From IMG/VR virus record IMGVR_UViG_3300037827_000697, positions 1 to 33,691 of that record: a stretch of 33,691 bases of DNA; one strand, given 5' to 3'. Positions within the stretch are counted from its first letter, which is position 1. Every line of letters begins with the position of its first letter. Positions 5,252-33,393 of the stretch are shown one piece after another. The notes beneath the pieces are model-generated. The model searched no databases. It was not told the DNA's origin and saw nothing but the letters and a program-made list of their open reading frames with translations. Source of the DNA: a virus. The position numbers and the translations under genes are program-made.

Positions 5252-5545
5252 TTAAGGCGTATTAAGGTATGGAGTACCAGCCCACGACATAGATGTGGCT
5301 GTGGTAGTACGTGATACACCATTCACTGTCGCACTTGTGAGAATTTTTACCGCACCGAGAATATAAACGAGTCCTGCTTGAGCTGAAGGCCACCATTGCG
5401 CCTGTCCTTGAGCGTTTTGCCACACAATATCACCAGCGCCACCCACAGCAAGATATAAGGCCATGCATGTTACGCCACTGCTTATGAAAGCGGTATCCAA
5501 AGTAACTGCATCGCTATAGGCCGGAACAAATCCGTAAGTCAACAT
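5252..5545 (-). CDS. Hypothetical virion-associated protein
   Basis: The 97-residue protein begins MLTYGFVPAYSDAVTLD and contains a Trp-rich beta-like stretch, DIVWQNAQGQAQWWPSAQAG, then AVKILTSATVNGVSRTTTATSMSW. This looks like a small beta-sandwich protein that I have a sense of from podovirus late operons, without an assigned role. Start supported by AGGGAG upstream. It sits immediately after the large terminase gene. Confidence 0.75.
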   Translation of the reverse strand: MLTYGFVPAYSDAVTLDTAFISSGVTCMALYLAVGGAGDIVWQNAQGQAQWWPSAQAGLVYILGAVKILTSATVNGVSRTTTATSMSWAGTPYLNTP

Positions 5546-5562
5546 ATAACAACTCCCTGTCG

Positions 5563-7035
5563 TTAATCTGCATAATAAACTACATCATAATGCGAACCAT
5601 CGGTGATCATGTCGCCATCCAGCGCCAAGGTCATCGTTTGAAATGCATCAACTCCATGTGATGCCCAGTTGTGGACTGGTCGGTTCTTATACGTACCCAT
5701 CTTATCATCAAATTCCTTGCTATAGTTAGAGAGACAATCAATTAATCGTTGAGTATTTTCTTTATTGAATTCGCATAGATAAAGACGTCGGCGCATGGCT
5801 TCTATTGCATTTTCCTTGCTCGTCGGTCGTGGAACGATAAAAGCGCTTTCTCCCATATCCCGCATAAAATCAACTGTATTTTTCCCCGTATTAAAGTCTC
5901 TTTTTTGACCGTCATGTGGTAAAAAATGATCTTTGAATGGCAGATTATAGCGTGTACAAAATCGCCGGATTTCCATTACATAAAATGCGAGATCACGATT
6001 ATTATTTTCTATGTAGGATATGATTACAGGTTTCACATAACCATTAATGCGCTTCACCTGAAAAAGTACAATTGCTGTACAATCATTAATGCCGATATCA
6101 AAAGCTGAGTAGACATTCGCCTGAGGAATAATTAATTCGGGAATGATTCGATTATTTTCAAATATATTTTTTATCGCGTGCGCAAAATATTTGGTTTCCT
6201 GATTTACTTGAACCACCCCATAATATTCTTGCTGAATAAGATATTCAGGCATTCCGGCACGCCGATCTTCCTCGATCATTTCGTCCGTAATGTAGCGATT
6301 ACCCTCTTCATCTACTAGGTTAGTAATGCTATCAACCCTGCAATACCATAAAGGATCATCTTTATTATTTTCAATAAGCTGATAAAAATGATTCATACCA
6401 TCAAAAGTTGATTGACCCAACATCCAGCCACCATTTTGACGTAGTGCTGGCAACATTACGTAAAATACGCGAGGATCTTGAAATGCAAACTCCGCATATA
6501 CGATTCCTCGTGGATTGGTTCCTCGCAATTTATCTGGGTCAATATCTGATCCTACTACCCAAATAACAGACCCATTGACCAGCTTTATTTTCATTTCCTG
6601 ATTGTTAACGCTTTGAATCAAACGCTTCGGAATCATATGTAAAAATTTTAAGCTGATATTGTTGGGTAATAAAATAGCGCCATCCCAGAGAACAGCACGG
6701 GCGCGAACATTGGTTGGATAAACCATCATATAAAGACCGGGAGATTCAATAGCACCTTGTATGATAAAGTTCCATGATTCAACCTCTTTACCAGATCGTC
6801 TGGGACGTTCTAATAAATGACGTAGAACTTTCTTAACAAATAACTCTATCGCAGCTTCTACCTGATAAGTTCTAAACTTTATCATCGGAACTTGCGCTAC
6901 TTCTCCATCTTGAAATTTGATAATGAGATTAGCCTTGGAATCTCGGGAAGTAGTGAATTTTGCAGCATTCATAACAGCAAGATCATTACAAAGCTCGGTA
7001 GCCTTTGCTCTGATTTCTTTTAATATTTTATTCAT
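5563..7035 (-). CDS. terL: Terminase large subunit (DNA packaging ATPase/nuclease)
   Basis: The 490-residue protein has the two-domain terminase layout. ATPase part: an atypical P-loop RPRRSGKE (77-84), and a Walker B-like GIVYAEFAF (177-185) in which Ala replaces the usual Asp before catalytic Glu182; GQST (207-210) is a candidate coupling motif. Nuclease part: SAFDIGIND (Asp313), FLPHDGQ (Asp375) and HGVDAFQT (Asp463) supply the metal-binding acidic residues. It cuts concatemeric DNA and drives it through the portal. Its place after the tail fibre gene mirrors T7 gene 19. The ribosome binding site is weak (GGAAC). Confidence 0.92.
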   Translation of the reverse strand: MNKILKEIRAKATELCNDLAVMNAAKFTTSRDSKANLIIKFQDGEVAQVPMIKFRTYQVEAAIELFVKKVLRHLLERPRRSGKEVESWNFIIQGAIESPGLYMMVYPTNVRARAVLWDGAILLPNNISLKFLHMIPKRLIQSVNNQEMKIKLVNGSVIWVVGSDIDPDKLRGTNPRGIVYAEFAFQDPRVFYVMLPALRQNGGWMLGQSTFDGMNHFYQLIENNKDDPLWYCRVDSITNLVDEEGNRYITDEMIEEDRRAGMPEYLIQQEYYGVVQVNQETKYFAHAIKNIFENNRIIPELIIPQANVYSAFDIGINDCTAIVLFQVKRINGYVKPVIISYIENNNRDLAFYVMEIRRFCTRYNLPFKDHFLPHDGQKRDFNTGKNTVDFMRDMGESAFIVPRPTSKENAIEAMRRRLYLCEFNKENTQRLIDCLSNYSKEFDDKMGTYKNRPVHNWASHGVDAFQTMTLALDGDMITDGSHYDVVYYAD

Positions 7036-26288: not shown

Positions 26289-26471
26289 TTATTTCTTCCG
26301 TAATTTTTTCAATGTCTTTGCAAGTCGCGCCTCTTTGCCTACCTTTCCACCTTTCTTGGCGGCTGCATTGAGTTTTTTAGCGGGGATGGGTTTACCTTTC
26401 TTTGCACCAAGTTTCTTGCGCAATGCGCCTTTATTCTTGGACGTTGCTTGCTGAATCCATTTCTCTGCCAT
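26289..26471 (-). CDS. Lys-rich basic protein
   Basis: The 60-residue product from the ATG at 26471 (AGGGAGCG upstream) begins MAEKWIQQATSKNKGALRKKLG and contains KKGKPIPAKKLNAAAKKGGKVG and KTLKKLRKK. The KWIQ..GALRK.LG.KKG..IPAKKL pattern is widespread in phages, generally annotated as a small basic protein. The high positive charge suggests nucleic-acid binding or condensation. A longer reading frame to 26510 has no binding site. It overlaps the small terminase candidate by 41 bases. Confidence 0.75.
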   Translation of the reverse strand: MAEKWIQQATSKNKGALRKKLGAKKGKPIPAKKLNAAAKKGGKVGKEARLAKTLKKLRKK

Positions 26472-26904
26472 GATTGATCGCTCCCTGCGATTGTGACAAC
26501 GGGTTCTCACTGAATCGTTTAAAAGATTCGCTTAATTTATTAAATAATTCAAGTAATTCTTTGTACTCAACTGCTTCGACCCCAAAATCTTCTCGCGCAA
26601 TGCTCGTTAACAGTTGCCAAGACGCCTGCCAGTTTGTTCGACGGTTTTTGACATCAGCCAGCATTTCTTGTATTTCAATACCTCTTTTTTGTTCAAAATC
26701 TACCCAAAGATGTGCAAATATTGTATTACTATTTGCCGTTGCTTCTTCTTCTCCACGTAATAACCAACGTCTTAAATTTTCACGGGGAATGCGTGCCATA
26801 CGCGCCACTTGGCCGATAACATAATTGCCTTGCACATTCTCAAGAATATGCTGTGCCACTTCTTCGGTTAGGGTTGTATGGAATCCAACAGGGTTTGATC
26901 TCAT
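26431..26904 (-). CDS. Terminase small subunit candidate
   Basis: A 157-residue product if started at ATG 26904 (AAGGA upstream); a TTG at 26946 would add 14 residues of poor quality. Residues 17-56 form an HTH-like stretch (EVAQHILENVQGNYVIGQVARM..IPRENLRRWLL) that resembles small terminases and phage terminase-like HTH proteins. The rest is helical with a polar tail. It is the first gene of the leftward virion operon, as small terminases often are. T7 TerS lies elsewhere, so this rests on HTH plus position. Confidence 0.55.
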   Translation of the reverse strand: MRSNPVGFHTTLTEEVAQHILENVQGNYVIGQVARMARIPRENLRRWLLRGEEEATANSNTIFAHLWVDFEQKRGIEIQEMLADVKNRRTNWQASWQLLTSIAREDFGVEAVEYKELLELFNKLSESFKRFSENPLSQSQGAINHGREMDSASNVQE

Positions 26905-26980
26905 TCGCTGCAATCCTTGCATTGATATGCAATAAGAATAACTCAAACAATCGCAAACGTCATTTCTTGATCGGATTTTG

Positions 26981-28909: not shown

Positions 28910-29392
28910 TTAACCTCTTGTCCATGATAAATCAACCGGTGCGCCACCGACTTTGCGTTTGTTATACGACTCTTTCCAGCGATTTTCAATGCTTTGAAAC
29001 CAGGCATGAATGACGCTTGAATGAACATGACGCAAATCTTGACCTGGTTCTACTGGAATGCCTTTAAGTTTGCTCACATAATTTCCATTGTTTACTGGTG
29101 CTGGATTAGGCGCACCCGCATTACGCACGGAAATTGCTGGCGCAGGGGTTGAGGGAAGGGTCGAGGGTTTTAATTGCTCTACGATAACACCCACTGCGGT
29201 TTTCATAGCTTCCTGTACGGTTGCTTGGATGGCAGACATGATATTGGCATCCAAGCTGACTGGACTTTGTGAAGAAACCGGTTCAACAGGATTAACTTTG
29301 ATTTCCGACGAGGTAACTTTGGCAATCTCACCGCCAACTTTGGATTGATGATCAACACGTTTTGCTTGTGATTTTGTGGCTTCCATTTCCAT
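28910..29392 (-). CDS. Hypothetical Pro/Ser-rich protein
   Basis: The 160-residue product begins at ATG 29392 (AGGAGCAACAA upstream). Its middle is Pro/Ser/Thr/Ala-rich (VEPVSSQSPVSLDANI; STLPSTPAPAISVRN) and likely disordered. The end HVHSSVIHAWFQSIENRWKES..KRK is basic and aromatic. It lies two bases before the endolysin. Role unknown. Confidence 0.65.
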   Translation of the reverse strand: MEMEATKSQAKRVDHQSKVGGEIAKVTSSEIKVNPVEPVSSQSPVSLDANIMSAIQATVQEAMKTAVGVIVEQLKPSTLPSTPAPAISVRNAGAPNPAPVNNGNYVSKLKGIPVEPGQDLRHVHSSVIHAWFQSIENRWKESYNKRKVGGAPVDLSWTRG

Positions 29393-29453
29393 TTGTTGCT
29401 CCTTTGTGGTTAAAAATTCCATTTAACAAATTCACCATAACACAGCCTTTGGA

Positions 29454-29915
29454 CTACGAGAAATATTCCGTTACAATGGCTTTTGCTTCCTCAAAACCAA
29501 AGGCGACATGCGTAGACCAGCCCTGTCGTTTGAACCAGTCCAACCAGTCCTGTTGATTTTCAGTTACATCGCTCATTTTTCCATCTGGTCTCTTCAATTC
29601 AATTACAAGCCCGTGGTAAGACGATCTCGATGTGAGCCTTGCCATGGGTACTATAATGTCTGGAATCCCCGCCTTGGTGCCCATTCTTTTGAATTTGGCA
29701 CCCTCAATCGGGTTTCTTCCTCCTCCATTTGGTGAATGGAACCAACGATAGTCTTTTCCCCATAAAAATTTATCGAACCATAGGTTGAATTTTATTTGTT
29801 CAACCTCCTCGATGTTCTGACGTTTTTTCTTTATCGGTTGGGGTTTTGGTGGCTCTCCGTTTCCGTAGAGTGCGCCATAAGCTGCCCAATAGGCTTTGGT
29901 TGGTTTCCTTTGCAT
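29454..29915 (-). CDS. VRR-NUC domain nuclease
   Basis: The 153-residue product carries the VRR-NUC core: FHSPNGGGRNPIEGAKFKRM (59-78), GIPDIIVP with Asp86, GLVIELKR with Glu106 and Lys108, and ENQQDWLDWFKRQGW (119-133). This PD-(D/E)xK family acts on branched DNA such as flaps or Holliday junctions and is common in lambdoid replication regions. The start has GGAGG and overlaps the upstream gene by 85 bases. It is probably a resolvase for replication or packaging intermediates. Confidence 0.9.
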   Translation of the reverse strand: MQRKPTKAYWAAYGALYGNGEPPKPQPIKKKRQNIEEVEQIKFNLWFDKFLWGKDYRWFHSPNGGGRNPIEGAKFKRMGTKAGIPDIIVPMARLTSRSSYHGLVIELKRPDGKMSDVTENQQDWLDWFKRQGWSTHVAFGFEEAKAIVTEYFS

Positions 29916-30181
29916 GTATCCTCCGTGATACTGTGATCTGCAAATACATCCAGAATGTCCTGTTCGCTGTAAGCGGCTAGTGCATGTAACATTTGCACAT
30001 CATCCGTGTGTGCATAAAGTGGTCGTACAATTTTCTTGAGCTGCGTCATTTTTCCTGCTGCGGCGTAGCATAATTTTGGAGTGTATTTTTGATCTCCAAA
30101 AAATGTCCTGTAAACTTTAGCTGCTACAGCTTCCCCTGCTGTGATTATCGCCTGTTTCGATGGTGTCTGTTTCTTTTCCAC
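29831..30181 (-). CDS. Hypothetical replication-region protein (GTG start)
   Basis: The 116-residue product starts with GTG at 30181, nine bases after AGGGAG, overlapping the initiator gene by 65 bases. It is helical in its centre (AIITAGEAVAAKVYRTFFGD; LHALAAYSEQDILDVFADH) and ends in a polar His/Asn/Pro tail. Placed where lambda has gene P, but no P-like motif is visible. It may be an initiator accessory; unknown. Confidence 0.65.
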   Translation of the reverse strand: MEKKQTPSKQAIITAGEAVAAKVYRTFFGDQKYTPKLCYAAAGKMTQLKKIVRPLYAHTDDVQMLHALAAYSEQDILDVFADHSITEDTCKGNQPKPIGQLMAHSTETESHQNPNR

Positions 30182-31049
30182 GATTTAACTCTCCCTGTTG
30201 TTGTTTCAAAAGATATCGCCTTTTCAGTTCCTTGTAGGGGATGTGTTCCACTACAGGTTCTGATTCTTTTGGCTGCGCTTCCTGCGCATTACTTCCATTT
30301 TTTGCTTCAGCAGCTTCCCGCTTCTGTCGCTCAATTCTTTCTTGCGTCCAATCTTTCATTTTTGGCCTGTTATCTTGGACGACTTGTCCATTTCCTATCA
30401 TGGCCGGTATTTTTTCGTCAATCAGGAAATTCTCAAAGTTCCGATTCCAGTCCGCGCTAGTCGCTTCTTTCGATATTTGAAGGTTCCGAAATTTGGCAAT
30501 CAGTTGGTCTATGCTCTTCCCAACTTTGCTCGATACTTCACGTGCCGTGATCATATTTTGATCGTTTGGAAACCAGGAGGGAGAGAGGGGTGCGCGCTTC
30601 GTGCGCGCTCTCTCTGTTTTCTTTTGTTTGTTTATTGTTTCTTTATGTGGGTACTCAGGTACCCATCTGTTGGGTACTCTAGTACTCATCTGATAGGTAC
30701 TAGAGTACTCATCTGATTTTTTATCCACAGGCTGATGAGTACTAGAGTACCTATCTAAACACCACTGCTTACCTTCTATTTTGGGCAAAGTTATTCCATA
30801 GGCGTTGGCCTTACCGGTGCGTCTGACAGTGATTAATTTTTGAGATTCGAGCTTTTTGGCACGGCGTGTAAATTGAGATATTTGTAAGCGACATTCGCGG
30901 GCGACATCAGGACGAGTGATATACCAGAAATCTTTATCCCCAATATGGGAAGCCAATATTAAAAGGATCGTGACATCGGAAGGAATAAGGTCGTACGAAA
31001 GTGAAATCTCATCTCTGAGAAACAAGGCTACACGCAACATCAAGTTCAT
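30117..31049 (-). CDS. Lambda-O-like replication initiator with internal origin
   Basis: The 310-residue product has a winged-helix N-terminus (about 22-87: IPSDVTILLILASHIGDKDFWYITRPDVARECRL then KKLESQKLITVRRTGKANAYGI split by polar residues), the DNA-binding part of O-like proteins. Residues about 99-133 are encoded by iterons and are low-complexity (YSSTHQ..EYSSTYQ..). The C-terminal half is helical (ARTKRAPLS; EVSSKVGKSIDQLIAKFRNL; a QQQ run). O binds iterons as a dimer and recruits the replicative helicase through its C-terminus. Start: AAGGATAG before ATG. First gene of the leftward replication/lysis block. Confidence 0.85.
   Translation of the reverse strand: MNLMLRVALFLRDEISLSYDLIPSDVTILLILASHIGDKDFWYITRPDVARECRLQISQFTRRAKKLESQKLITVRRTGKANAYGITLPKIEGKQWCLDRYSSTHQPVDKKSDEYSSTYQMSTRVPNRWVPEYPHKETINKQKKTERARTKRAPLSPSWFPNDQNMITAREVSSKVGKSIDQLIAKFRNLQISKEATSADWNRNFENFLIDEKIPAMIGNGQVVQDNRPKMKDWTQERIERQKREAAEAKNGSNAQEAQPKESEPVVEHIPYKELKRRYLLKQQQGELNRGKETDTIETGDNHSRGSCSS
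30582..30752. other. Replication origin inside the initiator gene
   Basis: In the leftward direction: an inverted iteron (30732-30752), DnaA box TTATCCACA (30721-30729), three direct iterons at 30695-30715, 30672-30692 and 30649-30669 (starts exactly 23 bp apart), a T-rich stretch (30616-30648) and a GC-rich inverted repeat (GCGCGC-TTCGT-GCGCGC at 30592-30608, flanked by GAGAGAG/TCTCTCT). Iteron core: GGTACTCTAGTACTCATCTG, itself containing an imperfect palindrome. The 23-bp period is not a multiple of three, so the repeats are kept for DNA, not protein. Lambda ori has the same order: iterons, AT-rich, palindrome. Confidence 0.85.
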
Positions 31050-31310
31050 TTCTATCCTTAAGCAGGGATTCTAAGGCTTGCAATCCTTACAAGAACCTTT
31101 AAAATTACCCTGTCTGTCACGACATCTATTAAATGGATTTTCCTTTGAAAGGGGAGTGTTCAGCTCCCCTGATCAAGTCTTAAAGAATAATACCAATCCT
31201 TTCTCAAAGCCACTTGAAATTATCCACAGAATCAGTGCATAAGCTTGTTAGTAAATTGTGCAAACCTGCGCTATGATTATGTCTTTAACCATTGACAAGG
31301 ACGTGCACAA
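31050..31310. promoter_or_regulatory. Intergenic leader with DnaA box, extended -10 and hairpin
   Basis: These 261 bases separate the leftward initiator from the rightward gene at 31311. A perfect DnaA box (TTATCCACA, 31220-31228) and a leftward extended -10 (TGGTATTAT, 31195-31187) lie here, without a good -35. GGGGAG-TGTTCAG-CTCCCC (31151-31169) forms a hairpin; leftward it is followed by TTTC only, so it is a poor terminator but may be a leader element. For the rightward gene TATGAT (31272-31277) is a candidate -10 with a weak -35. Confidence 0.4.
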
Positions 31311-31451
31311 ATGAAAAAGAAAGCCAAGGAAATGAAACCGGCAACGAAAGAAGAAATTAAGAAAATGAAAAAAGAAGACATGAAAGAAGATAAGAAAATA
31401 ATGAAAAAAGTCGTCAAGGAAAAAAAGAAGGCTATGAAGAAAAAGAAATAA
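31311..31451 (+). CDS. 46-residue Lys/Glu-rich protein
   Basis: The product begins MKKKAKEMKPATKEE and is Lys, Glu and Met almost throughout, ending MKKKK. AAGGA lies nine bases upstream. It stands alone on the right strand between two leftward blocks and is followed by a terminator, so it is probably a one-gene unit. Such composition suggests a highly charged helix; nucleic-acid binding is possible. Low complexity means homology would be uninformative. Confidence 0.6.
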   Translation: MKKKAKEMKPATKEEIKKMKKEDMKEDKKIMKKVVKEKKKAMKKKK

Positions 31452-33186: not shown

Positions 33187-33393
33187 TTAGGTTAAAAAGT
33201 CCTCAATTGATAATTTGATTTTATGCTTTTTTGCCAATGCAAGCATTAACCGTACCTTGGATAAACGCGGCACTCTTCTGCCAGATTCCCAATTTGAAAC
33301 GGTTCCAGCCGTCACGTCAAATTCTTTTCCAAACTCAGCTTGTTCAAGACTAAGTGCCAGTCTCAATTTCTTAATAATAAGGTGCGGGGTCAT
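33187..33393 (-). CDS. Cro/CI-type HTH regulator
   Basis: The 68-residue protein has a classical XRE/Cro fold: LSLEQAEFGKEFDVTAGTVSNWESGRRVP (15-43), with helix-turn-helix about residues 16-36. It is the size of Cro and lacks a CI-type cleavage domain. Strong binding site GGAGG. It is divergent from the early operon and lies next to the palindrome at 33435, so it likely binds there and represses one or both promoters. Whether it acts as a Cro-like switch or a simple repressor cannot be told. Confidence 0.85.
   Translation of the reverse strand: MTPHLIIKKLRLALSLEQAEFGKEFDVTAGTVSNWESGRRVPRLSKVRLMLALAKKHKIKLSIEDFLT

Follow-up and report, generated by a model that had tools for sequence, protein, structure and literature searches.

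The phage studied here is small and related to Rickettsiella prophages, and we propose, with a probability of roughly 0.7 as judged from its sequence, that it carries a lambda-like replication origin inside its initiator gene and uses host DnaA there as iteron plasmids do, where lambda uses its P protein. A lambda-type origin embedded in the initiator gene had already been put forward in the initial annotation of this DNA and is still the best reading, the order of the elements being that of the annotated lambda ori. In-gene origins that have type-specific iterons are a classical theme; what sets the present phage origin apart as a variant is a DnaA box combined with a missing loader. Since a docking site for DnaA is present and a recognisable helicase-loading gene is not, the phage appears to mix the lambda and the plasmid ways of starting replication. 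The stretch analysed, called the window below, is the whole IMG/VR record IMGVR_UViG_3300037827_000697 of 33,691 bases, and the features concerned are the following.

30117-31049, minus strand: initiator gene, 310 aa (ORF call)
Initiator residues 1-90: predicted winged-helix N-terminus (AlphaFold2)
Initiator residues 92-136: low-confidence linker (AlphaFold2), encoded by the iteron region
Initiator residues about 150-215: helical C-terminal domain (AlphaFold2)
30732-30756, minus strand: iteron 1 in gene order, near-palindromic, apart from the others beyond a gap
30690-30714, minus strand: iteron 2, 23-bp step
30667-30691, minus strand: iteron 3, 23-bp step
30644-30668, minus strand: iteron 4, 23-bp step
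30721-30729, plus strand: perfect DnaA box TTATCCACA, placed between iteron 1 and iteron 2, recurring in relatives in another frame and strand
31220-31228, plus strand: another perfect DnaA box, at -179 in the region upstream of the initiator gene
30612-30651, minus strand: candidate unwinding tract, A-rich on the gene strand and T-rich on the other
30581-30616, minus strand: bulged GC-rich hairpin, GAGAGAG-GCGC...GCGC-bulge-CTCTCTC, its shape kept in most relatives
29831-30181, minus strand: small gene of type B, overlapping the 3' end of the initiator gene, candidate partner of the initiator C-terminal domain

The two ends of the record share 127 bases, which gives a circle of 33,564 bp. RecE-like, RecT-like and SSB-like early proteins and structural proteins of podovirus type are encoded. 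The portal protein is 57-100% identical to that of 54 viral contigs and has further relatives in Rickettsiella massiliensis (Legionellales), in a Rickettsiella MAG and in another gammaproteobacterial MAG, on which account the host is probably a gammaproteobacterium of Rickettsiella-like kind. One phage of the clade (L065 / G043, JAIFWG010000001.1) was met in a MAG labelled Candidatus Parcubacteria 'viral-cat', probably a binning label and not the host. Terminase_6N had no match in the phage or in seven relatives; the likely large terminase (5563-7035, minus strand; PHROG 7579 match over residues 67-283) stands far from the small terminase (26431-26946). The initial annotation had suggested GC skew as a check for an origin at 30.6-30.75 kb, which turned out to be uninformative: on the 33,564-bp circle the skew (minimum at 33370, maximum at 5316) tracks gene direction and cannot locate an origin.

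Four dyad-symmetric iterons are found in the initiator ORF, about 300 bp inside the gene; three of them (30644-30714) follow each other at exactly 23 bp, as had been noted before, and the fourth stands 42 bp further. Each iteron is near-palindromic (GGTACTCTAGTACT and variants), and its direct and inverted readings both score well, so that the inverted copy described earlier is largely a consequence of this symmetry and carries little weight. When a 20-base iteron consensus was searched with up to 3 mismatches, 7 matches were obtained in the window, all within the array (0.03 expected), and a second array comparable to 30644-30756 was not present elsewhere in the window. In viral contigs the iteron pattern gave two single-site matches, judged to be chance. 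The 23-bp period is out of the reading frame, and none of 200 synonymous codon shuffles that kept the protein reached the repeat score. The repetition is consequently a DNA-level feature, and the earlier argument that a frame-breaking period indicates selection on DNA was upheld.

Between the array and the hairpin lies the region that had been called T-rich and unwinding-like. Its strand asymmetry is indeed exceptional (top 0.11% of windows), but its A+T content of 70% is unremarkable, being equalled by 18% of the windows in the phage genome. The GC-rich inverted repeat of the initial annotation is present as a hairpin with an upper GC stem, a 5-nt bulge and a lower stem GAGAGAG/CTCTCTC; its folding energy is -12.8 kcal/mol (z -5.1), and only 8 of 3000 synonymous versions (0.3%) fold equally well. 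This synonymous null is beaten (at most 20 of 3000) in the window, in nine of the ten relatives tested and in lambda (11/3000), the exception being L072 with 445/3000; in L073 the 3' arm of the hairpin is lost.

The perfect DnaA box at 30721-30729 does stand between iterons as claimed, and in gene sense it reads TGTGGATAA. The only other perfect box in the window is the one at 31220-31228, and since 0.41 would be expected by chance in the whole window, a single box proves little. Relatives are more informative: a perfect box within or touching the array was seen in 7 of the 9 initiators that were found without using the box (L098 and L103, found by a pattern that includes it, were left out), where codon shuffling predicts about 0.16 in total. 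In most relatives the box reads L-S-T in frame, five of them sharing the in-frame L-S-T codons, which could reflect shared descent; the box of the window is not simply an inherited peptide, as it lies on the other strand and in another frame (codons P-V-D-K). The box of L077 sits inside the array, and the relative G013, whose C-terminal domain is different, has a DnaA box of its own and 22-23-bp iterons. L072 and L073 have the array but no perfect DnaA box, and no helicase was found in either. That such a box is unusual for a lambda-type ori, another point of the initial annotation, agrees with its absence from all 60 distinct lambda-O genes and all 70 distinct gp18-type genes, comparators so closely related among themselves that they count as two lineages and not as 130 independent cases. 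On these comparisons the box is a feature of the clade. A literature search turned up no description of DnaA boxes within the in-gene iterons of an O-type initiator; since subscription reviews of phage replication modules were outside its scope, novelty is put forward with reserve. The second, upstream box occurs in two phages only, the window (-179) and L070 (-190), and possibly serves DnaA control of initiator transcription. On the G030 contig of the same clade, TAGTCCCTAATTATACTTTTG-type repeats and a DnaA box were observed at about 5400-5700, upstream of an ORF resembling a plasmid-type Rep gene.

The AlphaFold2 model of the initiator has a mean pLDDT of 62.7 and was for this reason used for domain boundaries alone; in the model the iteron-coded linker is probably disordered. 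The protein has a weak match to PHROG 270/428 (replication initiation) and 30% identity to the initiator of L005, which has HTH_36, matches the 'O-like' PHROG 678 at 7.5e-8 and gives a sub-threshold match to PF17948 (DnaT-like domain) that is missing from the Pfam scan of the window initiator. PF04492, the Pfam lambda O family, had no match at E up to 1 in either protein; the gene stands outside that family. The earlier label 'O-like gene' seems right as to how the gene works. An HMM of the present initiator family recovers P22-type gp18 initiators at E 1e-18 to 1e-20. No plasmid-type Rep family appeared in the Pfam scan of the initiator, nor any plasmid match by tblastn. A sequence search against solved structures returned chance matches only, and Foldseek against the PDB returned generic winged-helix regulators, none at E below 0.001; against a viral library it returned many HTH replication proteins, an annotated O protein among them, all at low TM-scores.

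Besides L005, seven more initiators were obtained by a profile search of 46 relatives and two by a pattern search. L005 is syntenic with the window, its neighbouring VRR-NUC protein being 86% and its portal 94% identical. Its iterons (GGGGAACYACAGTTCCC) are quite different from those of the window and again 23 bp apart, and it too has a DnaA box, an A-rich tract and a hairpin of the same shape. Further iteron types in the clade are GGAACYACAGTTCC, GATCYACAGATC, GGTCAACTACAGTTGACC, GGCTCACTACGAGCC and GTGGYGTCCACACCAC; the pair of initiator and iteron that had been announced as new is new, but it is one among many. When related phages were examined for iteron conservation, as had been advised, the order of the elements proved to be constant in ten related initiators, with varying iteron sequence, and the repeats scored above all 200 codon shuffles in nine of the ten, the exception being L103. 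A scan for box and hairpin also gave L100 and L104, which were discarded because these hits fall in no matching ORF. When 16 genomes of the order to which R. massiliensis belongs and 369 genomes of its class were searched with a profile built from nine initiators, nothing was found; this profile was too diverse to scan contigs with, and the genome search had no positive control.

It was also recognized that the domains of the initiator have been exchanged, since L070 and L073 resemble different phages in each domain. The DNA-binding domain of L070 matches that of L005 at 64%, and its C-terminal domain matches the window at 53% as against 22% for L005; between L073 and L005 the corresponding values are 76% for the DNA-binding and 22% for the C-terminal domain. 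The junction of the exchanged parts lies within the iteron-coded linker. Two unrelated types of small gene follow the initiator, both coding for proteins of 70-116 aa, type A in L005, L072, L074, L075, L076 and L077, and type B in the window, L070, L073 and L103, and the type co-varies with that of the C-terminal domain. One recombining unit is the DNA-binding domain plus its iterons, and it is exchanged independently of the C-terminal domain and of the small gene downstream; the co-variation suggests that the small protein and the C-terminal domain are physical partners. A family search with the small gene gave no match, to any loader family included. Another record (L002/L003, IMGVR_UViG_3300028036_000003) is identical to window positions 29000-30448 and stops at 30448, in the C-terminal part of the initiator, which could be a branch point to a variant with another N-terminal module.

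The DnaC/IstB, DnaB_C (PF03796) and lambda P families had no match in the phage or in seven relatives, the controls being detected; PF06992 (lambda P) was absent from the 8 records and detected in the E. coli control. The replicative helicase that P22 gp18-type phages encode after the initiator was missing as well, PF03796 being absent. Among 14 further records DnaB_C exceeded the cut-off in three (G023, G026, G031), and none of these had a perfect DnaA box in the DNA read. Counted by hand, a box without helicase occurs in 7 cases, a box with helicase in 0, a helicase without box in 3 and neither in 2 (G010, G014). The hypergeometric probability of about 0.045 ignores ancestry and comes from roughly twelve related genomes, fragments among them, so the mutual exclusion of DnaA box and phage helicase in the clade is suggestive only.

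In phage lambda (J02459) the origin is likewise inside the initiator gene, and an A-rich tract on the gene strand is followed by a hairpin that beats the synonymous null. The four imperfect-palindrome iterons of lambda stand at 20/24/23 bp, those of the window at 23 bp plus a gap, and their sequences are unrelated, as had been supposed. Lambda differs furthermore in its PF04492 initiator and in the P gene adjoining O, neither of which had a family match in the window, and lambda O lacks a DnaA box even when one mismatch is allowed, whereas the window has a perfect one in the array. The gp18 initiators of P22 type (Salmonella phages S107, SI8) share the winged helix with the window family and have a DnaT-like C-terminal domain, and many genes of this type contain in-gene repeats, commonly of 24 bp; they differ in that a primase/helicase gene of their own follows and in the absence of perfect DnaA boxes. 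Iteron plasmid origins (P1, F, RK2, pSC101, R6K) resemble the window in combining iterons, an A+T region and DnaA sites, which they require, but their iterons are mostly direct repeats bound by Rep monomers (PMC5043065), and those of the window are palindromic and lie in an O-like gene. Lambda O acts as a dimer on palindromic iterons and opens the tract beside them, and together with P it replaces DnaA (PMC5043065), which is still needed for transcription from pR (PMC7466680).

The elements, the selection on DNA, their conserved order and the absence of known loader and helicase families can be read from the sequences themselves; we infer that the segment is the origin, that the initiator binds the iterons and DnaA acts at the box, and that the hairpin has a role. 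Dimers of the N-terminal winged helix would bind the palindromic iterons, and the array would open the adjoining strand-asymmetric A/T tract. Host DnaA on the box within the array may aid opening and deliver host DnaB, a step proposed because neither a helicase nor a loader can be recognised in the phage. The hairpin may bound the opened region or be a start site on single-stranded DNA. Whether the clade forms a natural hybrid class, with palindromic in-gene iterons, host DnaA in the array replacing P in function, and freely exchangeable iteron/DNA-binding modules joined through the origin, is nearly an even question, leaning slightly to the negative.

The main rival keeps the lambda-like in-gene origin and lets the helicase be loaded by the initiator C-terminal domain with the small downstream protein, a diverged P analogue, the box only tuning initiation or nearby transcription; were the small gene such an unrecognised loader, DnaA would be less needed. 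The co-variation of two unrelated small-gene types with the C-terminal domain is as expected for partners like lambda O and P, L072 and L073 do without a box, and in lambda DnaA works through transcription (PMC7466680). We consider this reading unlikely, since the small proteins match no loader family, no DnaC- or P-like domain was found, and a box that most members carry in the array or adjoining it is easier to reconcile with a direct role at the origin than with control of a promoter.

Much less probable is that the array is an operator through which the initiator represses its own gene or operon, the true origin lying elsewhere: palindromic sites for a winged-helix protein typify operators too, but the present array is located about 300 bp into the gene and adjoins an asymmetric A/T tract and a conserved hairpin, arranged as in lambda ori, and the genome has no other iteron array. 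The idea that coding for a low-complexity linker produced repeats, box and hairpin as a side effect draws on the predicted disorder of the region and on the L-S-T codons shared by five relatives; the out-of-frame period, the codon shuffles (0/200) and the synonymous hairpin test (8/3000) disfavour it, as does the different frame or strand of the window box, and it seems the least probable of all.

If the DnaA-assisted lambda-like origin is real, lambda O/P and the DnaA-assisted helicase recruitment of iteron plasmids are joined in one natural family, and related origins with or without DnaA box, and with or without phage helicase, make a set for testing the trade-off. Additionally, the related winged helices and the iterons paired with them, of at least seven types, may help to decode how initiators achieve their specificity in phages akin to the prophages of intracellular Legionellales.

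At 31062-31114 and 31150-31170 (minus strand), just ahead of the initiator start codon, lies a leader whose counterparts occupy the corresponding position in nine relatives. In all 10 phages about 50 nt of it fold into a two-tier hairpin with differing stem sequences (z -2.4 to -5.0), and the GGGGAGC/GCTCCCC-type hairpin upstream of it shows compensating changes in L074, L076 and L077. Rfam gave no credible match on this leader, which is a candidate conserved leader RNA or operator. Divergent from the initiator runs a short, lysine- and methionine-rich ORF (31311-31451, plus strand; MKKKAKEMKPATKEEIKKMKKED...), and several relatives show a comparable coding sequence in the region upstream of their initiator gene.
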